From: Tepidiforma bonchosmolovskayae | Lineage (GTDB): Bacteria; Chloroflexota; Dehalococcoidia; Tepidiformales; Tepidiformaceae | Direction: 5' to 3' | Assembly: GCF_008838325.1 (NCBI RefSeq) | Contig: NZ_CP042829.1 | Coordinates: forward strand, 1,550,001 to 1,614,000 | Length of the DNA stretch: 64,000 nucleotides | Part shown: in pieces, positions 30,599-46,912 of the stretch | Position numbering within the stretch: position 1 is the stretch's first letter | Layout: each line of letters begins with the position of its first letter | Translations under genes and position numbers: made by a program | The notes under the pieces: model-generated | What the model saw: only the letters and a program-made list of their open reading frames with translations | Database searches by the model: none | Told to the model about the DNA's origin: nothing

Positions 30599-30723
30599 GG
30601 CCCTGCCCCCGCCTCCGAATTTCCTCTCGGGTGTTACCGGCCTGTCCATCAAGCCGGCGCAGCTCCTGCGCGCCGCCGCGGCCTGCCGGCAGCCCCTCCA
30701 GCCCCTACCCGGAGGTTCCTCCC

Positions 30724-33015
30724 GTGTCCGCCGGTCCCATCCGTCCCAAGCGCTGGCCCATCATGGCCGCGGCCGTTGCGCTTGTCGCAGCCGCCCTCCT
30801 GCTCCCCGCCGTCCACCGGGGTCTCGCCCAGGAACCCGATGGAACCCTCGTCATCGCCAAGGTCATCCCCGGCGACCCCGGCGATACGACGACCTTCTTC
30901 GCAACCCTCGCGCCCTGCGCCGAACCGAAGGACGGCAAGACGTTCGGCTTCAGCCAGCTGGAACCCGCGAGCGTTTCTGTCGCGCCTGACTGCTGGCTCG
31001 TAAGCGAACAGCCTCCGCGCGGCTACCTGAATCTCGGCTGGTCACTCGGCCAGCTCGACAAGAACGGCTCGCCCGTCTGCCCTGAAGCCATCGACAGTCG
31101 CTCAACGCAGGCTGAGGTGAAGGTCGGCGCCGCCGATCCCGTGGTTGTCTGTTTCTACAACCAGTTCAACTCCGGCCCCAATGACCAGCCCCGCGACGAC
31201 GCAAACCTGTTCATCGCGAAGGTCGTGCCCGGGTCCCCGGGTGATACGACGGTCTTCCAGGCGTCCTATGCCCCCTGCGACGACCCCAAAGCGGCAAATT
31301 CCGTGACCTTCAGCCAGGGCGCCCCCGCCGGCGTCGCGGTCAAGGATGGCTGCTGGCAGGCCGAAGAGGTCAGCCTCCCGGCGGGCTACGTCAACCTCGG
31401 CTGGGCCCCTGGCCGCATCACCCTGGGCAAAGATGGCACGCCCCAGATCTCCTGCCCGGACAGCCCCACGGAGTTCTCCTCGGTCGCGAAAGTCGATATC
31501 AGCGCCAAAACCGGCGCCCAGGCCGTCTGCTTCTACAACCGCGCAAACGAGCGCCCGACAGACCCGTGGGATCCCCCGCCCGCCGGCAGCGCTACCCTCA
31601 CCGTCGCCAAGGTCATCCCCGGCCACCCGGACGATGACCGGAACTTCCAGGCCTGGGTGTCGCAGTGCGGGGACAACACCGACCCCATCGCACCGCCACC
31701 GTTCGGGGTCGGGTTCAGTCAGCCGTCCCCGGGTACCCTTCCGCTCGAACCCGGCTGCTGGTCGGTGAGCGAGGAGATCCTGCCCCGTTCGCCCTACGGT
31801 TTCGCCGGCTGGGCCCTGGGAGCCGAAAAGGGCGGCGAACTCTACTGCCCCGACGGGCCCGAAAGCGCTGAGCAGCCGGTCCAGCTCAAGCTCGGCGCGG
31901 GCGATCGCCGGGTCATCTGCTTCTACAACACCCGGCTCGATGGCGACCCGCCCGTCGAGAAACCGACCCTCACCGTCGCCAAGGTCATCCCCGGCTCCCC
32001 GGGCGATGCAGCGCCGTTCACTGCCGCGGTCGCCGGCGTCGGCACCGACTTCACCGCGAATGTCACCTTCGCGCAGGGCGACCCCGGGCAGCTCGTGCTC
32101 GCCCCCGGCGGCTACACCGTCCGCGAGCTGCCCCGGACCGGCTACCGCACCCTCGGCTGGAGCTACGGCCGCTTCGAAACCGGGCCCGGCGGCCCTCCGT
32201 GCCGCACCGGCTGCGACATTCAGACCGGCCGGCTGGTCTGCCCCGCAGCCCCCGACCAGTCCGGCGACACCGCGCCCGTGACCATCGAACCCGTCGGCGC
32301 GACGCCCGAGGCCAACCCCGGCGCCGGCGAGCACGTCCTCGTCTGCTTCTACAACGAGCCGCTGACCGTCAGCCAGGACCCCGCCGAAGCCGGTGTCACC
32401 ATCCGCGTCGCGAAGACCGAGAACATCGTCGGCTTCGAGCGCCCCGGCGCCGGCTGGGAGTTCACCCTCTCAGGCTGCGGCATCGAGCCGCGCACCGCCG
32501 TCACCGGTCCTGATGGTGTCGCCCTCTTCGAGAACCTGCCCCCGGCCGTCGGCTGCTCCTACACCGTCGCCGAAACCCTCCGCCCCGGCTGGACCGCCCA
32601 GTTCGCGGTCCGCGACGCCTCGCCCCGCCAGCCCGGCGAAATCGTCACGCTCGCCTTCCTCAACATCCGCGACTGGAACCCGCCCTGCATGGTCGGCTGC
32701 TACGAACTGCCGCCCTCCGACCCGCCCCCTCCTCCCCCGGCTCCCCCCGCTCCGCCCCAGCCCGCCGTCCCGGCCCCGCCCGCGGCGCCGACCCCGCCCG
32801 CGCAGTCGAGCAGCACCGAAACGCCCCCGGCCGACTCCTCCGCGACCGGCGCGCCGCCGCCTGCCGCCCTCGCCACGCCGCTGCCCCCGCGCGCCGGCAA
32901 CGCCCCAGCGGCCGGCCGCGCAGCGCTCCCCGGCCCCGCGGCCCTGGCGGTCCTGGTCCTGCTGAGCAGCTCTGCCGGCCTGGCGGCGGTTGCCCTTGCG
33001 CGCCGCAGCACCTAA
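30724..33015 (+). CDS. Large repetitive surface protein with C-terminal membrane anchor
   Basis: 763 residues. A signal peptide (to the LAQE region near residue 37) is followed by four tandem copies of a 120-130-residue unit that begins with AKVIPG (residues about 41, 161, 291 and 415) and ends with CFYN. Each unit holds several Cys, probably paired outside the cell. Residues about 557-650 look like a SpaA/Cna-B beta-sandwich (VTIRVAKTENIVG ... GPDGVALFENLP). A Pro/Ala-rich stretch and a hydrophobic helix with a basic end (ALARRST) close the protein, like a sorting signal but without a clean LPXTG. GTG 30724 has GGAGG 8 nt upstream. Confidence 0.85.
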   Translation: MSAGPIRPKRWPIMAAAVALVAAALLLPAVHRGLAQEPDGTLVIAKVIPGDPGDTTTFFATLAPCAEPKDGKTFGFSQLEPASVSVAPDCWLVSEQPPRGYLNLGWSLGQLDKNGSPVCPEAIDSRSTQAEVKVGAADPVVVCFYNQFNSGPNDQPRDDANLFIAKVVPGSPGDTTVFQASYAPCDDPKAANSVTFSQGAPAGVAVKDGCWQAEEVSLPAGYVNLGWAPGRITLGKDGTPQISCPDSPTEFSSVAKVDISAKTGAQAVCFYNRANERPTDPWDPPPAGSATLTVAKVIPGHPDDDRNFQAWVSQCGDNTDPIAPPPFGVGFSQPSPGTLPLEPGCWSVSEEILPRSPYGFAGWALGAEKGGELYCPDGPESAEQPVQLKLGAGDRRVICFYNTRLDGDPPVEKPTLTVAKVIPGSPGDAAPFTAAVAGVGTDFTANVTFAQGDPGQLVLAPGGYTVRELPRTGYRTLGWSYGRFETGPGGPPCRTGCDIQTGRLVCPAAPDQSGDTAPVTIEPVGATPEANPGAGEHVLVCFYNEPLTVSQDPAEAGVTIRVAKTENIVGFERPGAGWEFTLSGCGIEPRTAVTGPDGVALFENLPPAVGCSYTVAETLRPGWTAQFAVRDASPRQPGEIVTLAFLNIRDWNPPCMVGCYELPPSDPPPPPPAPPAPPQPAVPAPPAAPTPPAQSSSTETPPADSSATGAPPPAALATPLPPRAGNAPAAGRAALPGPAALAVLVLLSSSAGLAAVALARRST

Positions 33016-36017: not shown

Positions 36018-36380
36018 ATGAGCTTCTACGACCAGTGGTCCGCCATCCTTATCGCCGCCATCGCCGGCTTCATCCTCGTCTTCACGGCCCTCATCGGCAC
36101 CCGCCTCCTCGCACCCTTCGCCCGTGAGCGCGCCAAGGGCCTCTCCTACGAGTGCGGCATGCTCCCCATTGGCCGCAACTGGGCCCAGGTCCACGTCCGC
36201 TACTACCTCGTCGCCATCGTCTTCCTCCTCTTCGACGTCGAAACCGTCTTTATCTTCCCGTGGGCGATCACCTACCTCTCGCTCGCAGAATTCATCTTCT
36301 GGCAGATGATCCTCTTCATCGCCATCCTCAGCCTTGGCCTCGTCTACGCCTGGAAGCGAGGCGTCCTGGAGTGGAAATGA
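36018..36380 (+). CDS. nuoA: NADH-quinone oxidoreductase subunit A
   Basis: Membrane subunit of complex I, 120 residues with three helices. The conserved loop YECGMLPIG and [12 protein letters not shown] are present. ATG 36018 gives the normal length, although no clear ribosome binding site precedes it; a much longer frame upstream covers the repeat array and is not coding. Overlaps nuoB by 4 nt. Confidence 0.95.
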
Positions 36381-36937
36381 GCGAAGCGACCGTCCCGCCC
36401 TACGTCCCCGATTACGGCGCCGAGCCCGAACGCCTCCGCCCGGTCGAGCTGCCCCAAACCCGCGCCGCCTACCGTATCGTCCTTCCCGGCGTCATCCAGA
36501 CCGGCGCCGACCTCGTCCTCGCCATGAGCCGGAAGAGCTCCCTCTGGCCCATGACCTTCGGCCTCGCCTGCTGCGCCATCGAAATGATCGGCACCTTCAT
36601 GGCCAACCACGACCTCGACCGCTTCGGCATCGTCCCCTGGCCCAGCCCCCGCCAGAGCGACGTCATGATCGTCTCCGGCACCGTCACGAAGAAGATGGCC
36701 CCGGCCATCAAGCTCCTCTACGAGCAGATGCCGAACCCGAAGTACGTCATCTCGATGGGCGCCTGCGCCACCAACGGCGGCCCCTACACCGAATACGACC
36801 GCGTCCTCCAGGGCGTCGACAAGATTATCCCGGTCGATGTCTACGTCCCCGGCTGCCCGCCGCGCCCTGAATCGCTCCTCGATGGCTTCCTCCGACTCCA
36901 GGAGAAAATCATGGAAGACAGGCGGATGGTCGGATGA
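36377..36937 (+). CDS. nuoB: NADH-quinone oxidoreductase subunit B
   Basis: Carries the N2 4Fe-4S cluster next to the quinone site. 186 residues with all ligands: the CC pair in GLACCAIEM, the Cys in GACATNGG, and VPGCPPRPE. The N-terminal 45 residues are a variable extension. Overlaps both neighbours (ATGA). Confidence 0.96.
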
Positions 36938-37452
36938 GCAAGCCCCTCGCCCCGAAGCCCATCGACCAGGTCGTCAAACTCCTCGAACAGCGGTTCGGCA
37001 AGCTCCCCGTCACCATCTCCCAGACGGCCACCGACGCCAACATCGATGTCCCGCCCGAGCACTTCCGCGCCGTCGTCGAAGAGCTGAAGAACCACCGCGA
37101 CCTCGCCTTCGACTTCCTCCGCAACATCGTCGGCATCGACATGCTCGAAGAGGGACTCGCCTGCAAGTACCAGTTCTTCTCCTATAAGAACCGGCAGTCG
37201 GTCCAGGTCACCGTTCTCACGCCGCCGGGGAACCCCCACATCCCGAGCATCACCGACCTCTACCCCGCAGCCAACTGGCACGAGCGCGAAGCCGCCGAGA
37301 TGGTGGGCCTCGTCTTCGATGGGCACCCAAACCTCAAGAACCTCCTGCTCGACGAAGACGTCCGCATTCACCCCCTCCTCAAGGCCCACCCGCTCCAGAA
37401 GGCCGAGATCCTGCAGGGCATCGAAGACACTACCCCGGGGTTCCCGTTCTGA
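36934..37452 (+). CDS. nuoC: NADH-quinone oxidoreductase subunit C
   Basis: Peripheral-arm subunit of 172 residues. The 30-kDa subunit signature is present as [20 protein letters not shown], followed by [15 protein letters not shown]. It is not fused to NuoD, unlike in E. coli. A 40-bp gap separates it from nuoD. Confidence 0.94.
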
Positions 37453-37492: not shown

Positions 37493-38650
37493 ATGAGCAT
37501 CTGGCCCGAAGAGCGTCTCCGCGCCCTCGCCGACGACGGCTTCGAAACCGTCGATATGACCATCAACGTCGGGCCCCAGCACCCGGCCACCCACGGCGTC
37601 TTCCGCATGGTCCTCACCGTCGACGGCGAAAAAGTCGTCGATTGCGAGCCCTACATCGGCTACCTCCACCGCGGCCTCGAAAAGCTCACCGAGAACCACG
37701 ACTACCGCCAGTCCATGGGCTGGTGGGACCGCACCGACTACCTCGCCGGCATGGCCTGCGAAATGGCCTACTGCATGGCCGTCGAAAAGCTCGGCAACAT
37801 CGCCGTCCCCCGCCGCGCGGAGTACATCCGCGTCATGATGGTCGAGCTCTCCCGCATCCTCTCCCACTTCATGTTCCTCGGCGCCTTCGGCGCCGACGTC
37901 GGCTCCTTCGGCACCTCCTTCATCTACGCCTGGCGCGAACGCGAGCGCATCTACGACTTCTTCGAAGAAGTCGCCGGCGACCGCATGTTCCCCACCTACT
38001 TCCGGCCCGGCGGCGTCCAGATGGACCTCCCCGACAACTACCAGGACCGGGTCCGCTGGCTCCTCGGCTCCATCCGCCAGGGCCTCGAAGACTTCGACGG
38101 CCTCCTCGTCGGCAACGAAATCTTCGTCGAACGCTGCCGCGGCCTCTCCCCCGTCACCCCCGAACAGGCGATCGCCTGGGGCCTCACCGGCCCCTGCCTC
38201 CGCGCCACCGGCTACAGGTTCGACCTCCGCAAAGACGAGCCCTACAGCGTCTACCCCGAGCTCAAGTTCGATATCCCCACCGGCACCACCGGCGACGTCT
38301 TCGACCGCTTCATGGTCCGCATGGCCGAAGTCTGGCAGAGCACCCTCATCGTCGAGCAGTGCCTCGATGCCCTCTCCCAGATGGAAGGCGAACTCGTCCT
38401 CAACCCCGACCTGCCCAAGACGCTCCGCATCGACAGCGGCGAATGCTACGTCCGCACCGAGGGCACCAAGGGCGAATACGGCGTCTACGCCCTCGCCAGG
38501 GGCGGCAACAAGCCCTACCGCATGAAGCTCCGCTCGCCCTCCTTCTGCAACCTCTCCGCCCTCCGCGAAATGGTCATCGGCACCTACGTCGCCGACGCCA
38601 TCATCATCCTCGGCTCCCTCGATATCGTGCTCGGCGAGGTCGATAAATGA
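37493..38650 (+). CDS. nuoD: NADH-quinone oxidoreductase subunit D
   Basis: 49-kDa subunit lining the quinone pocket, 385 residues. It begins at ATG 37493 after GAGG; INVGPQHPATHGVFR holds the quinone-binding His, and IGYLHRGLEKL and MGWWDRTDY follow. The end IILGSLDIVLGEVDK is the normal C-terminus (D in the last motif). Overlaps nuoH by 4 nt. Confidence 0.96.
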   Translation: MSIWPEERLRALADDGFETVDMTINVGPQHPATHGVFRMVLTVDGEKVVDCEPYIGYLHRGLEKLTENHDYRQSMGWWDRTDYLAGMACEMAYCMAVEKLGNIAVPRRAEYIRVMMVELSRILSHFMFLGAFGADVGSFGTSFIYAWRERERIYDFFEEVAGDRMFPTYFRPGGVQMDLPDNYQDRVRWLLGSIRQGLEDFDGLLVGNEIFVERCRGLSPVTPEQAIAWGLTGPCLRATGYRFDLRKDEPYSVYPELKFDIPTGTTGDVFDRFMVRMAEVWQSTLIVEQCLDALSQMEGELVLNPDLPKTLRIDSGECYVRTEGTKGEYGVYALARGGNKPYRMKLRSPSFCNLSALREMVIGTYVADAIIILGSLDIVLGEVDK

Positions 38651-39804
38651 TGCTCTTTGCCGACCCCCTCTTCGGGCTCCCCGCCTGGCTCGATGCCGTT
38701 ATCCGCATCGTCATCGTCGTCCTCGCCATGACGGTCATCGTCGTCTACAGCACCTACGGCGAACGGAAGCTCGTCGCCCGCTTCCAGCAGCGCCTCGGCC
38801 CCATGCGCACCGGCCCCTGGGGCCTCTGGCAGGGCTTCGCCGATGCCCTCAAGCTCGTCGGCAAGGAGGACATCCGCCCGAAGAACGCCGACCGCTGGGT
38901 CTTCGAGCTCGCGCCCTACGCGACCTTCATCCCCGTCCTCCTCACCCTCATGGTCCTCCCCTTCGCCGAGAACTGGGGCGTCCGCAACCTCGCCCTCGGC
39001 GTCTTCTTCGTCTTCGCCGTCCTCGGCCTCAACATCGTCGGCATCCTCATGGCCGGCCTCGGCTCCGGCAACAAGTACGCCCTCCTCGGCGGCATCCGCG
39101 CCGCCGCCCAGATGATCAGCTACGAAATCCCGCTCGTCGTCTCGCTCCTCTGCGTCGTCATGATCACCGGCGCCGATACCGGCAACGGCGTCGGCACCCT
39201 GAACCTCAACACCATCGCCGCCCTCCAGGAGGACCGGCCCTACATCGTCCTCCAGCCGCTCGCCTTCCTCATCTTCTTCACGGCGATGCTCTCCGAGCTC
39301 CACCGCGCACCCTTCGATATCCCCGTCGCCGAATCCGAAATCGTCGGCGGCTACTTCGTCGAGTACTCCGGCATCCGCTGGAGCATGTTCCAGCTCACGG
39401 AATACGCCTCGATGTGGGGCTTCGCCGTCTTCGGCTCGGTCGTCTTCCTCGGCGGCTGGGCCTGGCCGTTCGGCGTCGACAGCCACTGGGCCGTCCAGCT
39501 CGCAACCACCTTCACCAAGGCCCTCGCCATCGTCGTCGTCATCATCTGGATCCGGACCACCGTCCCCCGCCTCCGCATCGACCAGCTCATGAACTTCAGC
39601 TGGAAGGTTCTCCTCGAACTCTCCTTCCTCCAGCTCGTCGTCAACGGCATCATCCTCTACTACGAGTGGCCCCAGGAGCTGCTCGCCCTCACCAGCGCGC
39701 TCGGCGCCGCCTTCCTCATCTTCCTCATCATCCGCCACGCCTCTGCCCGCTCGACCAAAGGGCTCCTCGGCACCTACCGCACCCTCGGAGCGTCGTCGTC
39801 ATGA
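38647..39804 (+). CDS. nuoH: NADH-quinone oxidoreductase subunit H
   Basis: Membrane subunit joining the quinone site to the pump, 385 residues and eight or nine helices. Family landmarks: ERKLVARFQQRLGPMRTGPWGLWQGFADALKL (split here by its length; E in YGERK) and HRAPFDIPVAESEIVGGY. Overlaps nuoI by 4 nt. Confidence 0.95.
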   Translation: MMLFADPLFGLPAWLDAVIRIVIVVLAMTVIVVYSTYGERKLVARFQQRLGPMRTGPWGLWQGFADALKLVGKEDIRPKNADRWVFELAPYATFIPVLLTLMVLPFAENWGVRNLALGVFFVFAVLGLNIVGILMAGLGSGNKYALLGGIRAAAQMISYEIPLVVSLLCVVMITGADTGNGVGTLNLNTIAALQEDRPYIVLQPLAFLIFFTAMLSELHRAPFDIPVAESEIVGGYFVEYSGIRWSMFQLTEYASMWGFAVFGSVVFLGGWAWPFGVDSHWAVQLATTFTKALAIVVVIIWIRTTVPRLRIDQLMNFSWKVLLELSFLQLVVNGIILYYEWPQELLALTSALGAAFLIFLIIRHASARSTKGLLGTYRTLGASSS

Positions 39805-41165
39805 AAGGCATCCTCAAAGGCCTCGGCGTCACCTTCTCCACCTTCCTCCGGAAGCCCGTCACCATCGAATACCCCGACGAGCGGAAGGTCCTCCCCATCC
39901 GCCAGCGCTCCTTCCCGGTCCTCACCTGGGACTTCGACCACGACGAGCCCTTCTGCACCGGCTGCAACGTCTGCGTCCGCAACTGCCCGGTCGACTGCAT
40001 GACCGCGGTGATGAAGGACAATCCGAAGTACGCCGAGGGCACCAGCAACCGGCGCAAAATCGTCGACAAGTTCTGGATCGACTACGCGCGCTGCATGCGC
40101 TGCAACATCTGCGTCGAGGTCTGCCCCTTCGAAGCCATCGTCATGGACAACACCTGGGCGGGCCACGAGCACTCCGTCTACGACCGGCGCGACCTCCACA
40201 TGGATATCGACGAGCTCACGAAGGTCGCCCGCAGCGGCCAGCTCGTCCACCCCTTCCGCCCGCAGGACAACATCGAAGCGCTCGAACGGAAGGCCAAAGG
40301 TGAGGAGCCGCCGCCCCCCTCCTTCGTCGGCGGCCGCCCGGAGGACCGCCAGCGCCAGCTCGAACGGATCGCCCGCGGCGAGCCCGCCGCCATCCAGGAG
40401 CGCGAACCGGAGAAGCCGAAGACCGCCGCGTCCGCTGCCGCAGCCGGGGCAGCCGCAGCCGCTGGCGGCGAGGCCGAGGTCCTCTCCGAATCGAAAATCC
40501 GCGCGAAGCGGATGCGCGCCGAGCGCGAAGCCAAGGCCTACCTCGACCGCGGCGAGCCTGTCCCGCAGGAGATTCTCGACCGCATCGAGTACTACAAGAA
40601 CCTGAAGCCGGGGCAGCCCGCCGCGGCCCCGGGCGCAGCCGCAGGGACCGGCGCCCCCGCCGGCGAGGTGCTCTCCGGCACCAACCCCGACGGCACCATG
40701 CGGTTCCCGCCCGGCATCGGCATCGGTCCGAAGGGCGACCCGAACAGCTACGAGAAAGTCCGCGCGCGCCGGATGCGGGCCGAGCGCCAGTTCAAGGAAC
40801 TGACCGAGAAGGGCGAGCCGATCCCGGAGGAGCTGGCGAAGACGCTCTACGAGCTGGGGAGTGACCTCGCCCCCGGCGGCAGCATCTGGCAGACCCTCGC
40901 CGCACAGGGCGGCGGCGGAGCCGCGGCGGCAGCGCCGGCCGCGGGCGGCGCCGCCGGGGCAGCGAAGAGCGGCGCCTGGACCCCGCCGCCGGGCGTCGGC
41001 ACCGGCCCAAAGGGCGACCCGAACAGCTTCGAAAAGGTCCGCGCCCGCCGCATGCGCGCCGAGCGCCGCGCCCGCGAAGCCCTCGCGAAGGGCGAACCCA
41101 TCCCCGAGGATGTCATCCAGACGATCAAAGAGCTGGGCGGCACCCTGCCGGAGGGCGTTGAGTAA
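39801..41165 (+). CDS. nuoI: NADH-quinone oxidoreductase subunit I with long C-terminal repeat tail
   Basis: The first 180 residues are a normal NuoI: C52-x2-C55-x2-C58-x3-C62 and C98-x2-C101-x2-C104-x3-C108 hold the two 4Fe-4S clusters (N6a/N6b). The usual protein ends near there, but this one runs to 454 residues. The tail has Ala/Gly/Pro-rich linkers and three copies of a charged unit of about 35-45 residues starting at K232, K319 and K412, each reading K-[IV]-R-A-[KR]-R-M-R-A-E-R ... G-E-P-[IV]-P-[QE]-[ED]. Copies 2 and 3 are preceded by GPKGDPNS. The frame is intact, the codon use is unchanged, and nuoJ starts at its stop. Confidence 0.93.
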   Translation: MKGILKGLGVTFSTFLRKPVTIEYPDERKVLPIRQRSFPVLTWDFDHDEPFCTGCNVCVRNCPVDCMTAVMKDNPKYAEGTSNRRKIVDKFWIDYARCMRCNICVEVCPFEAIVMDNTWAGHEHSVYDRRDLHMDIDELTKVARSGQLVHPFRPQDNIEALERKAKGEEPPPPSFVGGRPEDRQRQLERIARGEPAAIQEREPEKPKTAASAAAAGAAAAAGGEAEVLSESKIRAKRMRAEREAKAYLDRGEPVPQEILDRIEYYKNLKPGQPAAAPGAAAGTGAPAGEVLSGTNPDGTMRFPPGIGIGPKGDPNSYEKVRARRMRAERQFKELTEKGEPIPEELAKTLYELGSDLAPGGSIWQTLAAQGGGGAAAAAPAAGGAAGAAKSGAWTPPPGVGTGPKGDPNSFEKVRARRMRAERRAREALAKGEPIPEDVIQTIKELGGTLPEGVE

Positions 41166-41665
41166 TGGCAACCGAAGTCATCTGGTGGGTCTTTGCCATC
41201 CTCATCACTATCCTCTCGGCCGGCGTCGTCTTCTCCCGCTCGGTCATCCACTCCGCCATCTTCCTCATCGGCAGCCTCGCCGGTGTCGGCGTCATGTTCG
41301 TCCTCATGACCGTCGAATTCCTCGCGCTGACCCAGTTCCTCATCTACGGCGGCGCCGTCACCGTGCTGGTCCTGCTCGCGCTCATGCTCACCCGCGCCGA
41401 CCCCAGCGGCCGCGCCGAAAAGGTCAACGGGCCCCAGGCGCCCTTCGCGCTCCTCGCCGGGGCCGCCATCGCCGCCGTCCTGCTGGTTGCGGGGCTGAGC
41501 ACCGAATGGGTCGGCAACACCGAAGCGCCGACCAACATCGCCATCGAAACCATCAGCCAGCGGCTGTTCGAGGACTACGGCCTCCCCTTCATCCTCGCCT
41601 CCGTCCTCTTGCTGGTAGCCCTCATTGGGGCCATCATCGTCGCTCGGCAAGAGGAGGGCGAGTAG
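41165..41665 (+). CDS. nuoJ: NADH-quinone oxidoreductase subunit J
   Basis: Membrane subunit of 166 residues with five helices; the VIHSAIFLIGSLAGVGVMFVLM and EFLALTQFLIYGGAVTVLVLL segments are typical, including the pi-bulge helix region. Its ATG shares one base with the nuoI stop (TAATG). Confidence 0.94.
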   Translation: MATEVIWWVFAILITILSAGVVFSRSVIHSAIFLIGSLAGVGVMFVLMTVEFLALTQFLIYGGAVTVLVLLALMLTRADPSGRAEKVNGPQAPFALLAGAAIAAVLLVAGLSTEWVGNTEAPTNIAIETISQRLFEDYGLPFILASVLLLVALIGAIIVARQEEGE

Positions 41666-41669
41666 ACCG

Positions 41670-41978
41670 ATGGTACCGCTGGAAAACTACCTCGCCCTCA
41701 GCGCCGTCATGTTCTCCCTCGGCGTCTACGGCGTCCTCGCACGCCGCAACGCCGTGCTCATCCTCATGAGCGTCGAACTGATGCTCAACGCGGTGAACCT
41801 CAACTTCGTTGCGTTCGCCGCCTACCTCGACCCGGGTCGAATCGTCGGCGCCATCTTCGCCGTGTTCATCATCACCGTCGCAGCTGCCGAAGTCGGCCTC
41901 GCGCTCGCCATCGTCATCCGGCTCTTCCGGAACCGCGCGACCGCGAACGTCGACGAAGCAGCAACCATGAAGTGGTAA
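41670..41978 (+). CDS. nuoK: NADH-quinone oxidoreductase subunit K
   Basis: Antiporter-like small subunit, 102 residues with three helices. MSVELMLNAVNLNFVAFA holds the conserved membrane Glu, and a second Glu is in VAAAEVGLALAIVI. ATG 41670 is chosen for normal length. Confidence 0.95.
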   Translation: MVPLENYLALSAVMFSLGVYGVLARRNAVLILMSVELMLNAVNLNFVAFAAYLDPGRIVGAIFAVFIITVAAAEVGLALAIVIRLFRNRATANVDEAATMKW

Positions 41979-41996: not shown

Positions 41997-43901
41997 ATGG
42001 GAGCTGAACAGGCCTGGGTGCTCGCCGCTATCCCGGCGGGCGTGTTTCTGGTGCTCGCGCTCTTCGGGCGCGCCCTGCCGCGCGGGGGCGACTACCTCGG
42101 CATCGCCGCCATCGCCTCGTCCTTTGTCCTCTTCTTCGTCGTCCTCGCCGATTTCCTCGATACCCCCGGCAAAATCGGACCCGTCGTCAACGATATCGAA
42201 TGGTCCTCCATCGGGGAGACCTTCACCCTCCGGATGGGCATCTTCATCGACCCCATCACCATCGTCATGTTCGGGGTCATCACCACCGTCGCCCTCATGG
42301 TCAACATCTTCTCCCTCGGCTACATGAAGGGAGAGCCCCGCTACTTCTGGTTCTACGCCGTCCTCCAGCTCTTCGCGGCCTCCATGCTCCTCCTGGTCAT
42401 GGCCGATAACCTCCTCCTCCTCTACATCTCCTGGGAGCTCGTCGGCGTCTGCTCCTTCCTCCTCATCGGCTTCTACTGGGAGAAGCGCTCCGCCACCGAG
42501 GCCGCCAAAAAGGCGTTCGTCACCACCCGCATCGGCGATGTCGGCCTCCTCATCGGCATCATCCTCCTCTGGAAAGAGGGCGGCACCTTCAACATCCAGG
42601 AGCTCATCCACCTCGCCGAAGAGGGCCACTTCAGCCAGCCGTACCTCTTCACCGCCCTCGCCTTCATTTTCCTCGGCTGCATGGGCAAGAGCGCCCAGGT
42701 CCCCTTCCACGTCTGGCTCCCCGACGCCATGGAAGGCCCCACTCCCGTCTCCGCCCTCATCCACGCCGCCACGATGGTCGTCGCCGGCGTCTACCTCACC
42801 GCCCGGCTCCTCCCCATGTTCGAAGTCGCCGACGGCATGCTCCTCGTCGTCACCATCGTCGGCCTCGTCACCGCCCTCCTCACCGGCTTCATCGCCCTCG
42901 CCCAGACCGATATCAAGAAGGTCCTCGCCTACTCCACGGTCGGCCAGCTCGGCTTCATGTTCGTCGCCCTCGGCGCCGGCGAACCGGCCGTCGCCATGTT
43001 CCACCTCATGACCCACGCCTTCTTCAAGGCGCTCCTCTTCCTCGGCGCCGGCTCGGTCATCATCGGCACCCACCACAACCAGGAGATGGACCGCCTCGGC
43101 GGCCTCTGGAAGAAGATGCCGATCACCGGCACCACCTTCCTCATCGGCTCGCTCGCCCTCGCCGGGCTCCCGCCGCTCGCCGGCTTCTGGTCGAAGGACG
43201 AGATCTTTGTCGCCCTCGAACACAAGTGGGGCGCTTGGGCGGTCATCCTCCTCGGCATCAGCGCCGTCACCACTGCCTTCTACACCACCCGCCTCTTCAT
43301 CCGCACCTTCATGGGCCGGCCCGCCGACCCGCACGTGTACGAAAACACCCGCGAGACCCCGCCCGTCATGACCGGGCCCCTCGTCTTCCTTGCCGTCCTC
43401 GCCGCGACCAGCGGGTTCGTCGTCTTCCACGACGTCGGCAAAGCGCTCGGCTTCCCGGGCGGCATCACCGAGTTCATCTTCCTGCCGCACCATGGCCCGC
43501 ACGAGTACGAGCTCAAGTGGGGCTTCGCCGCCGCGTCCGTGGCCATGGCCGTCACCGGTATTTTCACTGCCGGCTGGATGTACTGGGGCAACGACCTCCG
43601 CCGCTCCACCGCCCTCGCGAACTGGCAGCCCCGCCTCTACGACATGCTCCGCCGCAAGTTCTACTTCGATGAGCTCTACCAGGGCATGATCGACCGCGGC
43701 GTCCTCGGCGTCAGCTACATCGTCTCCTGGTTCGACCGCTACGTCGTCAACGACACCGGCGTCGATGGCTCGGCGCAGGTCACCGGGTTCACCGGCGGTG
43801 TTCTCAAATATCTCCAGACCGGACGCGTCCCGAACTACGCCATGGCCGTTGCCGTCGGTGTCATCGGGCTTGCGCTCGCCGGCCTGGCGGTGAGGGGCTA
43901 A
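41997..43901 (+). CDS. nuoL: NADH-quinone oxidoreductase subunit L
   Basis: Proton-pumping antiporter-like subunit, 634 residues. Key parts: WELVGVCSFLLIGFYW (pump Glu), GKSAQVPFHVWLPDAMEGPTPVSALIHAATMVVAG (split by length; Lys and His of the channel) and the long lateral C-terminal helix region. AAGGGG precedes the start after an 18-bp gap. Confidence 0.95.
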   Translation: MGAEQAWVLAAIPAGVFLVLALFGRALPRGGDYLGIAAIASSFVLFFVVLADFLDTPGKIGPVVNDIEWSSIGETFTLRMGIFIDPITIVMFGVITTVALMVNIFSLGYMKGEPRYFWFYAVLQLFAASMLLLVMADNLLLLYISWELVGVCSFLLIGFYWEKRSATEAAKKAFVTTRIGDVGLLIGIILLWKEGGTFNIQELIHLAEEGHFSQPYLFTALAFIFLGCMGKSAQVPFHVWLPDAMEGPTPVSALIHAATMVVAGVYLTARLLPMFEVADGMLLVVTIVGLVTALLTGFIALAQTDIKKVLAYSTVGQLGFMFVALGAGEPAVAMFHLMTHAFFKALLFLGAGSVIIGTHHNQEMDRLGGLWKKMPITGTTFLIGSLALAGLPPLAGFWSKDEIFVALEHKWGAWAVILLGISAVTTAFYTTRLFIRTFMGRPADPHVYENTRETPPVMTGPLVFLAVLAATSGFVVFHDVGKALGFPGGITEFIFLPHHGPHEYELKWGFAAASVAMAVTGIFTAGWMYWGNDLRRSTALANWQPRLYDMLRRKFYFDELYQGMIDRGVLGVSYIVSWFDRYVVNDTGVDGSAQVTGFTGGVLKYLQTGRVPNYAMAVAVGVIGLALAGLAVRG

Positions 43902-43905
43902 TCGC

Positions 43906-45411
43906 ATGACCTTCGACGAAGGCCAGGGCTACGTCGTCCTTGCCACCATCGCCGTGCCGCTGCTCGCGGCACTCATCCTCGTCTTCACCCCCGGCTCGCA
44001 GAAGATGGCCGTCCGCTACATCTCCGCGGTCACAGGCGCCATCCTCGCGGCGCTCTCCATCTACATCTTCGCCGCCTACCAGGTCGGCGGCGACCAGGCC
44101 CAGATGAACCTCCGGTGGACCTGGGTCGAAAACACCGCCTTCCTCGGCGAAAACGGCATCGCCCTCCGCCTTGCCGTCGATGGCATCTCCGCCCTCCTCG
44201 CCCTCCTCACCGGCGTCGTCGCGTTCGCCGGCGCCCTGGCCAGCTGGAAAATCGAGTACCGCAACAAAGACTTCTACATCCTCTACTGGATCCTCCTCGC
44301 GGGCGTCTACGGCACCTTTTTCGCCTACGACCTCTTCTTTTTCTTCTTCTTCTACGAACTCGCCGTCATGCCGCTCTACCTGCTCATCGGCGTCTGGGGC
44401 TCGACCCGGAAGGAGTACGGCGCAGCCAAGCTCACGCTGATGCTTGTCGGCGGCTCGGTGCTCATCTGGATCGGCATCTTCGCCGTCTTCCACCAGGCCA
44501 ACATCGGCACCTTCGACCTGCCCTCGCTCTGGGCTGCCGGCCAAAACGGTACCATCAGCCCGACCGCCCAGAAGGTCATCTTCCCGCTCATGGCCGTCGG
44601 TTGCGGCGTCCTCGCCGCCCTCTGGCCGTTCCACACATGGTCCCCCGACGGCCATATGTCGGCCCCGACCGCCGTCTCCATGGTCCACGCCGGCGTCCTC
44701 ATGAAGCTCGGCGCCTTCGGCATCATCCGCCTCGGCATCCAGCTCCTCCCCGAAGGGGCGCAGTTCTGGATGCCCGCCCTGATGGTCCTCGGCACCGTCG
44801 GCGCCGTCTACGGCGCAACCGCTGCCCTCACCCAGCGCGACTTCAAACTCATCTCCGGCTACAGCTCCGTCAGCCACATGGGCTACGTCCTCATGGGCCT
44901 CGCCACCATGAACACCATCGGGATTACCGGCGCCGTCCTCCAGATGTTCTCCCACGGAGTGATGACCGCCCTCGTCTTCCTCATGATCGGCGCCCTCTAC
45001 GACCAGGCGCATACGCGCGACATGAAGGAGTTCGGCGGGCTTGCCAAAGTGATGCCCCTCTGGGTCATCTTCTACGCCATCGCCGGCCTCGCCAACGTCG
45101 GCCTCCCCGGGTTCTCCGGGTTCACCGCCGAATTCCACATCTTCGTCGGCACCTTCCGCACCTACCCGGTCTTCGGCGCCCTCGCCATCTTCGCCGCAGC
45201 GCTCGCCGCTGCCTACATGCTCCGCATGTTCGCGACCGTCTTCTTCGGCCCCACCAATCCGCACTGGAAGGATTTGAAGGACCTCACCCCGCTCGAACGC
45301 CTCTCCGGCGCCATGCTCATCGCCTCCATCGTCATCATGGGCGTCTGGTGGGCGCCGTTCATCGACCGGGTGGGCCACACTGTCACCCTCCTCCCGGGGG
45401 TCACCGGCTGA
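43906..45411 (+). CDS. nuoM: NADH-quinone oxidoreductase subunit M
   Basis: Proton-pumping subunit of 501 residues with about 14 helices. The pump Glu is in FFYELAVMPLYLLIGVWG, the channel segment is WPFHTWSPDGHMSAPTAVSM, and SGYSSVSHMGYVLMG follows. It lies 4 bp after nuoL and 1 bp before nuoN. Confidence 0.95.
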   Translation: MTFDEGQGYVVLATIAVPLLAALILVFTPGSQKMAVRYISAVTGAILAALSIYIFAAYQVGGDQAQMNLRWTWVENTAFLGENGIALRLAVDGISALLALLTGVVAFAGALASWKIEYRNKDFYILYWILLAGVYGTFFAYDLFFFFFFYELAVMPLYLLIGVWGSTRKEYGAAKLTLMLVGGSVLIWIGIFAVFHQANIGTFDLPSLWAAGQNGTISPTAQKVIFPLMAVGCGVLAALWPFHTWSPDGHMSAPTAVSMVHAGVLMKLGAFGIIRLGIQLLPEGAQFWMPALMVLGTVGAVYGATAALTQRDFKLISGYSSVSHMGYVLMGLATMNTIGITGAVLQMFSHGVMTALVFLMIGALYDQAHTRDMKEFGGLAKVMPLWVIFYAIAGLANVGLPGFSGFTAEFHIFVGTFRTYPVFGALAIFAAALAAAYMLRMFATVFFGPTNPHWKDLKDLTPLERLSGAMLIASIVIMGVWWAPFIDRVGHTVTLLPGVTG

Positions 45412-45412
45412 C

Positions 45413-46912
45413 ATGCGCGACTACGCCCTCTTCGTCCCCGAGTACATCGCCTGCGGCGTCGCCCTCCTGGTCATCGCCATCGAACTCTTCGCGCCGAAGT
45501 TCCGGAAGGACGTCCTCGCCTACCTGACAGCCCTCGGCGCGCTCGCCTGGTTCGGCGCCGGACTCGCCTTCCTCGACCGCGACCCCAAGTCCTACCAGGG
45601 GCTCTTCCTCAGCGACGATTTCACCAGCTTCTTCCGCCTCCTCGCCGCCGGCATCGTCTTCGTCGTCGCCCTCATGTCCGCCGAATTCCTGAAGCGCCAG
45701 AGGGGCGTCGACCACGGCGAGTTCTACGGCCTCCTCCTCGTCGCCGGCTCCGCCATGACCATCATGGCCGGCGCCACCGAGCTGCTCACCGCCTACCTCG
45801 CCCTCGAAGTCCTCTCCTTCTCCCTCTACATCCTCGTCGGCATCCTCAAGCGCGACCTCCGCTCCAACGAAGCCAGCCTCAAGTACATCCTCCTCGGCGC
45901 CTTCTCCAGCGCGCTCTTCCTCTACGGCCTTTCCCTCGTCTACGGCTCGGCCGGCACCAGCAGCTACGCCGGCATCGCTGAAGCCTATGCCCGCCGCGAT
46001 TCCGGCCTCGACCCGGCCGTTGTCGTGGGCCTGATGCTCATCCTCGCTGGCGTCGGCTTCAAGGTCTCCGCTGCTCCGTTCCACATGTGGGCCCCCGATG
46101 CCTACGAAGGCGCTCCGCTCCCCATCACCGCCTTCCTCTCGACGCTCTCCAAGGCCGCAGGCTTCGCCCTCATCCTCCGCCTCTTCTCCAGCGCGTTCGT
46201 CACCGACGCCGAAACCTGGCGCTGGGCATTCCTCGCCCTCGCCGCCCTGACGATGACCGTCGGCAACCTCATCGCCATCCAGCAGAAGAACCTGAAGCGG
46301 CTCGTGGCCTACTCCTCCATCGGCCAGGTCGGCTACATGCTCATCACCATCGCCGCCCTCGGCTACGGCGACGCCCAGGTCGGCCTCAACGCCACCAGCG
46401 GCCTCCTCGTCCACCTCATCGGCTACATCGTCACCACCCTCGCCCTCTTCTCCGCCCTCACCGCGGCCGTCAACCGCACCGGCAGCGAAGAGATTGCCGG
46501 CCTCCGCGGCCTCGCCGAAACCCAGCCCTTCCTTGCGCTGGTCGTTACCGCGTCGCTCTTCTCCTTCGCCGGCCTGCCGTTCTTCGCAGGCTTCGCGACC
46601 AAGCTCTTCCTCCTCCAGGGCGCCACCACCGACGAGACCATCTGGGTCGTCGCCCTCGCCGTCCTGAACAGCTTCATCAGCCTCTACTACTACCTCATGG
46701 TCATCCGCCAGATGTACCTCTTCGACCCCGTCGGCGATGCCAGCCGCTACCGCGTCCAGCCCGTGCTCTGGGGGCTGGCCGCCGTGCTCCTGGTCGGCAT
46801 CCTCTTCATCGGCATGTACCCCGGCCCGGCCTTCGAACTCTCCGAGCGGGCCGCCCGCCCGCTCTTCGATGCGGCCTCCGCGGCGGCAGCCGCCCGCGTC
46901 CAGGCGCACTGA
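45413..46912 (+). CDS. nuoN: NADH-quinone oxidoreductase subunit N
   Basis: Proton-pumping subunit of 499 residues with about 14 helices; AYLALEVLSFSLYILVG and SAAPFHMWAPDAYEGAP are the channel signatures. Last gene of the nuo operon, followed by a strong bidirectional terminator. Confidence 0.95.
   Translation: MRDYALFVPEYIACGVALLVIAIELFAPKFRKDVLAYLTALGALAWFGAGLAFLDRDPKSYQGLFLSDDFTSFFRLLAAGIVFVVALMSAEFLKRQRGVDHGEFYGLLLVAGSAMTIMAGATELLTAYLALEVLSFSLYILVGILKRDLRSNEASLKYILLGAFSSALFLYGLSLVYGSAGTSSYAGIAEAYARRDSGLDPAVVVGLMLILAGVGFKVSAAPFHMWAPDAYEGAPLPITAFLSTLSKAAGFALILRLFSSAFVTDAETWRWAFLALAALTMTVGNLIAIQQKNLKRLVAYSSIGQVGYMLITIAALGYGDAQVGLNATSGLLVHLIGYIVTTLALFSALTAAVNRTGSEEIAGLRGLAETQPFLALVVTASLFSFAGLPFFAGFATKLFLLQGATTDETIWVVALAVLNSFISLYYYLMVIRQMYLFDPVGDASRYRVQPVLWGLAAVLLVGILFIGMYPGPAFELSERAARPLFDAASAAAAARVQAH

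Follow-up and report, generated by a model that had tools for sequence, protein, structure and literature searches.

How are electrons fed into a respiratory complex I that has no NADH module, and what does a C-terminal tail of about 300 residues do on the NuoI subunit of such an enzyme? Nuo complexes of 11 subunits that lack NuoE, NuoF and NuoG (EFG-less complexes) are known from Desulfitobacterium hafniense (PMC11238625) and from the marine Chloroflexi DscP3/Dsc4 (PMC5736913), and the direct electron donor of the 11-subunit enzyme has been stated to be an open question (PMC11238625). A NuoI gene of Tepidiforma bonchosmolovskayae raises both questions at once. The organism belongs to the Tepidiformaceae, hot-spring and environmental bacteria of the Dehalococcoidia. 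The window, that is, the whole stretch of DNA that was analysed, comprises 64,000 nucleotides of contig NZ_CP042829.1, and positions below refer to it unless given as G000:C1. A sequence-only reading of the window had proposed that the tail could dock an electron donor next to the N6 clusters.

An 11-gene operon encoding a 454-residue NuoI

Eleven genes are arranged in one direction in the order nuoABCDHIJKLMN:

36018..36380, + strand, nuoA (open reading frame and operon position)
36377..36937, + strand, nuoB, the N2 cluster subunit (open reading frame and operon; PF01058 match at G000:C1:1586569-1586895)
36934..37452, + strand, nuoC (open reading frame and operon)
37493..38650, + strand, nuoD (PF00346 match and operon)
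38647..39804, + strand, nuoH (open reading frame and operon)
39801..41165, + strand, nuoI with tail, 454 aa (stop-free open reading frame; Fer4, NuoI/TYKY and NCBIfam NuoI matches)
41165..41665, + strand, nuoJ (open reading frame and operon)
41670..41978, + strand, nuoK (open reading frame and operon)
41997..43901, + strand, nuoL (open reading frame and operon)
43906..45411, + strand, nuoM (open reading frame and operon)
45413..46912, + strand, nuoN, end of the 11-gene set (open reading frame and operon)

Among the open reading frames of the window, nuoE, nuoF and nuoG are absent from this operon. Judged by gene content, from the window and from tblastn of the family loci, the operon encodes an 11-subunit complex I and corresponds to the 11-subunit complex I-like enzymes already described (nuoABCDHIJKLMN, no NADH module). 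Elsewhere in the window, the repeat (L)TVAKVIPG-PGD--F-A occurs at least four times in a 794-aa open reading frame (30631-33015, + strand), which ends in a Pro/Ala-rich region with a hydrophobic segment; the product is probably a cell-surface protein.

The 454-aa protein is NuoI, subunit I of complex I. Fer4 models matched both cluster motifs of its core above cut-off, comparison of the core with the PDB retrieved solved NuoI/TYKY chains at E 1e-13 to 1e-14, and residues 1-148 were conserved in 40/40 aligned relatives. The best NCBIfam models for the whole protein were all NuoI models, with scores below the curated cut-offs (TIGR01971, 89.8 bits vs 113) because the family is divergent.

Structure of the tail

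The core and the tail beyond it are divided as follows:

39801..40244, + strand, nuoI core (aa 1-148) with two 4Fe-4S clusters, N6a and N6b (Fer4 matches at aa 48-113)
40245..40415, + strand, conserved pre-tail (aa 149-205), two predicted helices at 154-166 and 180-191 (family alignment)
40416..40478, + strand, linker 1 (aa 206-226), 76% Ala/Gly/Pro
40479..40616, + strand, unit 1 (aa 227-272), helix 230-249, RGEPVP turn, helix 256-267; pLDDT 91-95 in the helices
40617..40727, + strand, linker 2 (aa 273-309), first half disordered, pLDDT 37 at aa 281-290; 62% Ala/Gly/Pro
40728..40898, + strand, unit 2 (aa 310-366), helix 317-337, KGEPIP turn, helix 343-352; pLDDT 86-91 in the helices
40899..41006, + strand, linker 3 (aa 367-402), disordered, pLDDT 30 at aa 371-390; 81% Ala/Gly/Pro
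41007..41153, + strand, unit 3 (aa 403-451), helix 410-430, KGEPIP turn, helix 436-445; pLDDT 87-94 in the helices

The tail had been put at 270 residues; a long tail does exist, but its length is nearer 305 residues (149-454) when the 57-aa pre-tail (149-205) is included. The three related units had been placed at K232, K319 and K412, and these positions were exact, each lysine being invariant in a 23-sequence alignment. The core motif given for them, K-V-R-A-R-R-M-R-A-E-R followed by G-E-P-I-P, is exact in units 2 and 3 but reads K-I-R-A-K-R-M-R-A-E-R and G-E-P-V-P in unit 1.

A full-length AlphaFold2 model was built from the window NuoI and 39 relatives. In each unit the model placed a first helix (20-21 residues) and a shorter second one (10-12 residues) on either side of a G-E-P-[IV]-P turn, mostly at pLDDT 86-95; the stretches joining the units fell to pLDDT 30-45. 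Unit 1 modelled alone (50 aa, 64 alignment rows) gave the same hairpin, H6-26 and H32-43, at a mean pLDDT of 90. The pre-tail reached pLDDT values mostly of 66-88 per 10-residue block; linker 1 was partly below 50, although a helix was drawn at 207-220. The core of the full-length model was poor (pLDDT 46-85) and was left out of the mechanism considered below. Alignment and model thus agree with the description in the sequence-only reading of a two-cluster NuoI core continued by Ala/Gly/Pro linkers and small helical modules, and the structure prediction it called for returned confident helix-turn-helix hairpins on disordered linkers. Within each unit, the first helix is basic and about 21 residues long, and the second is amphipathic and about 11 residues long. 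The net charge of whole units is 0 to +3; that of the first helices is clearly basic, +3 to +5.

Conservation and selection

A total of 97 units was counted in 28 complete family genes, each from a different genome. In the motif S-x-x-K-x-R-A-[RK]-R-M-[RK]-A-E-R, the K, the first A and the second R were present in 97/97 units, the S and E in 96/97 and the M in 92/97; the units were located with a pattern already requiring part of the motif, and these counts describe conservation and are not independent evidence. Every one of the 28 genes encodes 3-4 units, with the first starting at aa 224-238 and successive units spaced 63-98 residues apart. Three units are found in the window and in G026, and four in G022, G024 and G025 of the same genus; the NuoI of Tepidiforma flava has four compared with three in the window. 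The array therefore changes by whole units between congeners.

Compared with four congeners, the units gave dN/dS values of 0, 0.016, 0.009 and 0.023 (dN 0-0.012 while dS was 0.26-0.52). Values in the same congener comparisons were 0.14-0.19 for the linkers, 0-0.067 for the pre-tail and 0.03-0.23 for the core, and in every comparison the units lay below the catalytic core of the same gene. Independently of the motif counts, these low ratios indicate that the units are translated and that strong purifying selection acts on them, stricter than on the catalytic core; the linkers are far less constrained. A frame artefact or annotation error as the source of the tail was ruled out by the open frame, the in-frame purifying selection and the conservation in the family.

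Distribution of the tail

All 33 family loci scanned combine the EFG-less operon with tail units; seven of them are truncated at a contig end or contain the operon only in part. The 47 named loci scanned outside the family also contain EFG-less gene sets, and in 47/47 of these NuoI is 154-201 aa long and carries no unit; where the best segment is short, their NuoI cores show 59-66% identity. Compared with these relatives, which have no repeats, the Tepidiformaceae NuoI adds 3-4 tethered hairpin units. No nuoE, nuoF or nuoG was found near any of the 80 loci in flanks of up to 9 kb.

Of 400 Chloroflexota genomes sampled across 225 genera, only the three belonging to the family gave a match to the unit, and in a class-wide search of 294 genomes the long match was again confined to Tepidiformaceae. 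A search of the genome with the unit alignment returned three copies, all in the tailed nuoI, with the next match at E 0.49; no other protein of the genome carries the unit by this search, and no partner was named that way. To judge from these gene sets, an 11-gene complex can work without NuoEFG and without the tail, since sister lineages run one in which NuoI is short.

In the open-access literature searched, no relevant report of a C-terminal extension of Chloroflexota NuoI was found, and the main text of the paper on the Tepidiforma isolates does not mention complex I, Nuo, NADH or ferredoxin. The tail is absent from the domain libraries searched and from the open-access papers found; the enzyme itself is of the known 11-subunit type.

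A second tail type

NuoI proteins of about 300 aa with 2-3 units of a different kind were found in family f7 (G043, G101, G129 and G163) and family f61 (G143). Their unit, D-x-R-V-A-x-A-R-x-[KR]-A-A-E-L-R-A-[QK]-[RK]-A-A-E-R-G-E, is a basic helix and is carried on Ala/Pro/Thr/Ser/Glu linkers; the operon is likewise EFG-less. The loci with this tail are L064, L065, L074, L186 and L187, and those f7 loci that have full context show nuoM upstream of nuoA and not between nuoL and nuoN.

Profile comparison of the two tail types gave a probability of 48%. In a maximum-likelihood tree of NuoI cores, the f7/f61 type formed a supported clade (99/97) whose sister has a short NuoI (joint clade 100/99). 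This clade stood apart from the Tepidiformaceae type with tail-less relatives between them, in a tree midpoint-rooted on a very long branch, the root of which is unreliable. Two independent gains of a tail would be the simplest reading of these sequences, and a deep common tail with losses in between is a possible alternative. Tails of both types were found only on EFG-less NuoI. This association is no more than suggestive, since it comes from two lineages, in a class where most operons of the sampled close relatives are EFG-less.

Second complex I and candidate donors in the genome

The absence of NuoEFG noted in the sequence-only reading is true of the operon but not of the genome, which contains nuoE, nuoF and nuoG elsewhere. 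A second, apparently complete complex I gene set that includes nuoEFG is spread over four loci (labelled, in the order below, L002, L039, L035 and L204):

2517.5-2519.7 kb (G000:C1), nuoE and nuoF
2530.4-2539.6 kb (G000:C1), paralogues of nuoA/C/D/H and J-N
2113.4-2116.3 kb (G000:C1), nuoG and a 157-aa NuoI
1937.6 kb (G000:C1), second NuoB

The 157-aa NuoI of this set has neither tail nor unit. One 14-subunit and one 11-subunit enzyme per cell would be the natural reading of the two gene sets, and NADH input to the tailed complex via a shared NuoEFG module is possible on the same gene content. NuoE-like genes occur elsewhere in 36/38 family genomes.

The proposed tie between the tail and the missing NuoEFG is weakened by these results. 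The finding named beforehand as refuting it, a tail together with NuoEFG in one complex, was not seen, no family locus having nuoEFG in the flank examined; but 47/47 EFG-less loci outside the family are tail-less and NuoE is encoded elsewhere in nearly all family genomes. The coexistence, in one genome, of the tailed NuoI with a second set containing nuoEFG and a short NuoI weakened the proposal further.

The genome encodes a 2-oxoacid:ferredoxin oxidoreductase of the KorA/KorB type and two small ferredoxins with a predicted pI of 4.1. A ferredoxin with several 4Fe-4S motifs at G000:C1:1950016-1950393 (L191), in a frame of at most 206 aa, may be a further candidate carrier. At about 2719-2724 kb of G000:C1 (L036:4555-8772), a molybdopterin oxidoreductase resembling formate dehydrogenase lies beside a 481-aa NuoE-like/NuoF-like fusion and a NuoG-like ferredoxin protein. 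This set looks like an NAD-dependent formate dehydrogenase and would be a possible other home for NuoEF-like subunits.

Comparison of the unit with known domains

E2 subunits of 2-oxoacid dehydrogenases carry lipoyl and E1/E3-binding domains on Ala/Pro linkers, and the tail had been likened to these swinging arms and subunit-binding domains. The two are alike in layout only, as small helical domains on flexible Ala/Pro-rich linkers by which redox partners could be held; the tail differs in having no sequence match, a first helix of about 21 residues, no lipoyl domain and a single module type that is repeated. Pfam E3_binding gave no match up to E 10 with the full protein or up to E 1 with 17 units searched singly, and no lipoyl domain was matched by Pfam in the tailed NuoI, beyond the Fer4 models and a sub-threshold QLQ match. 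Homology to 2-oxoacid dehydrogenase domains is not supported by these Pfam results. The E3_binding fold was not among the matches of the unit model in the PDB either, in a comparison where weak or missing matches exclude nothing.

The unit shares a helix-G-x-P-V-P-helix hairpin with the QLQ domain of SNF2/BRG1, which does bind proteins (PMC9117659); the match is confined to the second half of the motif, however, and the context of QLQ is eukaryotic chromatin. Pfam QLQ matched the tailed NuoI at E 0.0047 and 17.0 bits against a cut-off of 23.8, over profile positions 19-34 of 35, and 0/17 units matched singly. Superposition of the unit on the QLQ structure 7vrc gave 2.3 A over 38 columns with Foldseek E values of 3.3-5.6. 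Homology to QLQ was rejected, all matches being sub-threshold (Pfam, Foldseek and VIA-align), and convergence is most likely; QLQ can do no more than illustrate a way in which a hairpin of this kind might bind.

Profile matches in the PDB to adenylate kinases and to a tRNA methyltransferase, and NCBIfam matches to fumarate hydratase beta, were rejected as well, since they rest on a helix-[RK]-G-E-x-[VI]-P turn and a charged helix, a common local motif. A fumarate hydratase beta-like protein of the genome, at L002:14133-15221 (- strand), holds AHKRMIELMKRGEPLPIDLRGQVIYY, which is close to AKAYLDRGEPVPQEILDRIEYY of tail unit 1, and adenylate kinases hold a similar stretch. Both likenesses probably reflect a common helix-turn motif.

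Discussion

The reading that we prefer, while holding it short of probable, takes the tail for a multivalent docking array that is flexibly tethered at the cytoplasmic apex of the EFG-less complex I and most likely receives an electron-donating protein. Such an array is consistent with a first unit that starts at a nearly constant position, with variable linkers and with 3-4 copies in 28/28 genes. Equally consistent are the dN/dS of 0-0.023 in units against 0.14-0.19 in linkers and the confident hairpins on low-confidence linkers. The unit is restricted to the NuoI of the EFG-less operon and missing from the 157-aa NuoI, and a different array of 2-3 basic helices is carried by NuoI in another EFG-less lineage (f7 and f61).

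In the E. coli enzyme, the C-terminus of NuoI (139-180) contacts NuoG, NuoB, NuoF and NuoE (PMC8357420), so a longer one in an EFG-less enzyme would begin where that module is missing. By this analogy the tail would indeed sit next to the N6 clusters, as had been proposed. The E. coli and Tepidiformaceae extensions share their place on the arm; that of E. coli is 42 aa, extended and bound to NuoEFG/NuoB, whereas that of Tepidiformaceae is about 300 aa, built of repeated hairpins and found in an EFG-less complex. The pre-tail would thus lie on the arm near the position that NuoG takes in the 14-subunit enzyme, and the units may reach out to bind several copies of a single partner and keep it close to N6a. 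The likeliest partner would be the reductant of the complex, e.g. an acidic ferredoxin fed by the encoded 2-oxoacid:ferredoxin oxidoreductase, or that oxidoreductase itself; the KorAB-type enzyme and acidic ferredoxins encoded in the genome suit such a role. The array would raise the local concentration of donor; it would have been added to an EFG-less complex that works in any case, and would not be a precondition for that complex. A precedent for the entry site exists in cyanobacterial and chloroplast NDH-1, which works without NuoEFG and takes up electrons at NdhI (N6a); ferredoxin binds a positive pocket at its apex, with the transient subunit NdhV proposed as a guide (PMC7021789). NDH-1 differs in using separate small subunits, NdhS, NdhO and NdhV, with no repeat tail on NdhI.

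Several results temper the docking array. Nothing computed singles out ferredoxin as the partner, the helical hairpin is a common arrangement that gives no clue to the ligand, and the argument for an acidic donor is weak because the net charge of a unit is only 0 to +3. All 47 sister-lineage EFG-less complexes manage with a short NuoI, and NuoE encoded elsewhere in 36/38 family genomes leaves room for a shared NuoEFG.

A possible though doubtful alternative is a scaffold or clustering device, in which the units bind another membrane complex, a neighbouring complex I or an assembly factor and form arrays or supercomplexes with no role in electron input. It fits the multivalency almost as well as donor capture does, since 3-4 near-identical units on long linkers are as typical of scaffolds. 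The unit sequence does not point to a redox partner, and the tail-less EFG-less sister complexes imply that electron input does not need a tail. A scaffold is harder to square with the location of the tail on NuoI, at the electron-entry end, and not on a membrane-arm subunit, or with a second array, apparently of separate origin, that is also on an EFG-less NuoI.

The tail might instead be a structural cover, wrapped onto the apex of the peripheral arm that lies exposed without NuoEFG and stabilising it there. In E. coli, the C-termini of NuoI, NuoB and NuoF carry ordered extensions that enlarge inter-subunit contacts and staple the arm together (PMC8357420), and with pre-tail 149-205 highly conserved and partly helical, this role is likely for that segment at least. 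For the tail as a whole it is unlikely: the units lie 63-98 residues apart on disordered, variable linkers, copy number varies among close relatives when a surface staple should have a fixed geometry, and tail-less sister complexes exist.

Tethering to a polyanion or membrane, with the basic helices binding RNA, DNA or anionic lipid, is improbable. The first helices are K/R-rich, the best PDB profile match (9xzq, E 4e-6), partly a composition effect, falls on a basic helix in a tRNA methyltransferase, and the weak fold matches include ribosomal and tRNA-synthetase hairpins; the motif Glu is, however, as invariant as the Arg (96/97), and a net charge of 0 to +3 is unlike a plain polycation. Least credible of all is a passenger repeat, a low-complexity C-terminal expansion with no specific function: the high-GC, Ala/Gly/Pro-rich linkers and copy-number shifts by tandem duplication between species would suit it, but unit dN/dS values of 0-0.023, below those of the catalytic core, already disfavour it, and the tail is kept in every complete family gene examined.

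A wider proposition than the docking array itself, and one we hold with considerable doubt, is that tandem tethered helical modules on EFG-less NuoI have grown at least twice in Dehalococcoidia and load a soluble donor in several copies at the apex, as a modular replacement of the fixed arm that oxidises NADH. A conserved, repeated module on the electron-entry subunit is in any case ready-made bait for the partner of this headless pump. If the tail holds the donor, the donor question would be answered for one lineage, together with an unusual way of feeding a respiratory complex; if it holds something else, it would reveal an unrecognised organisation of the respiratory membrane.
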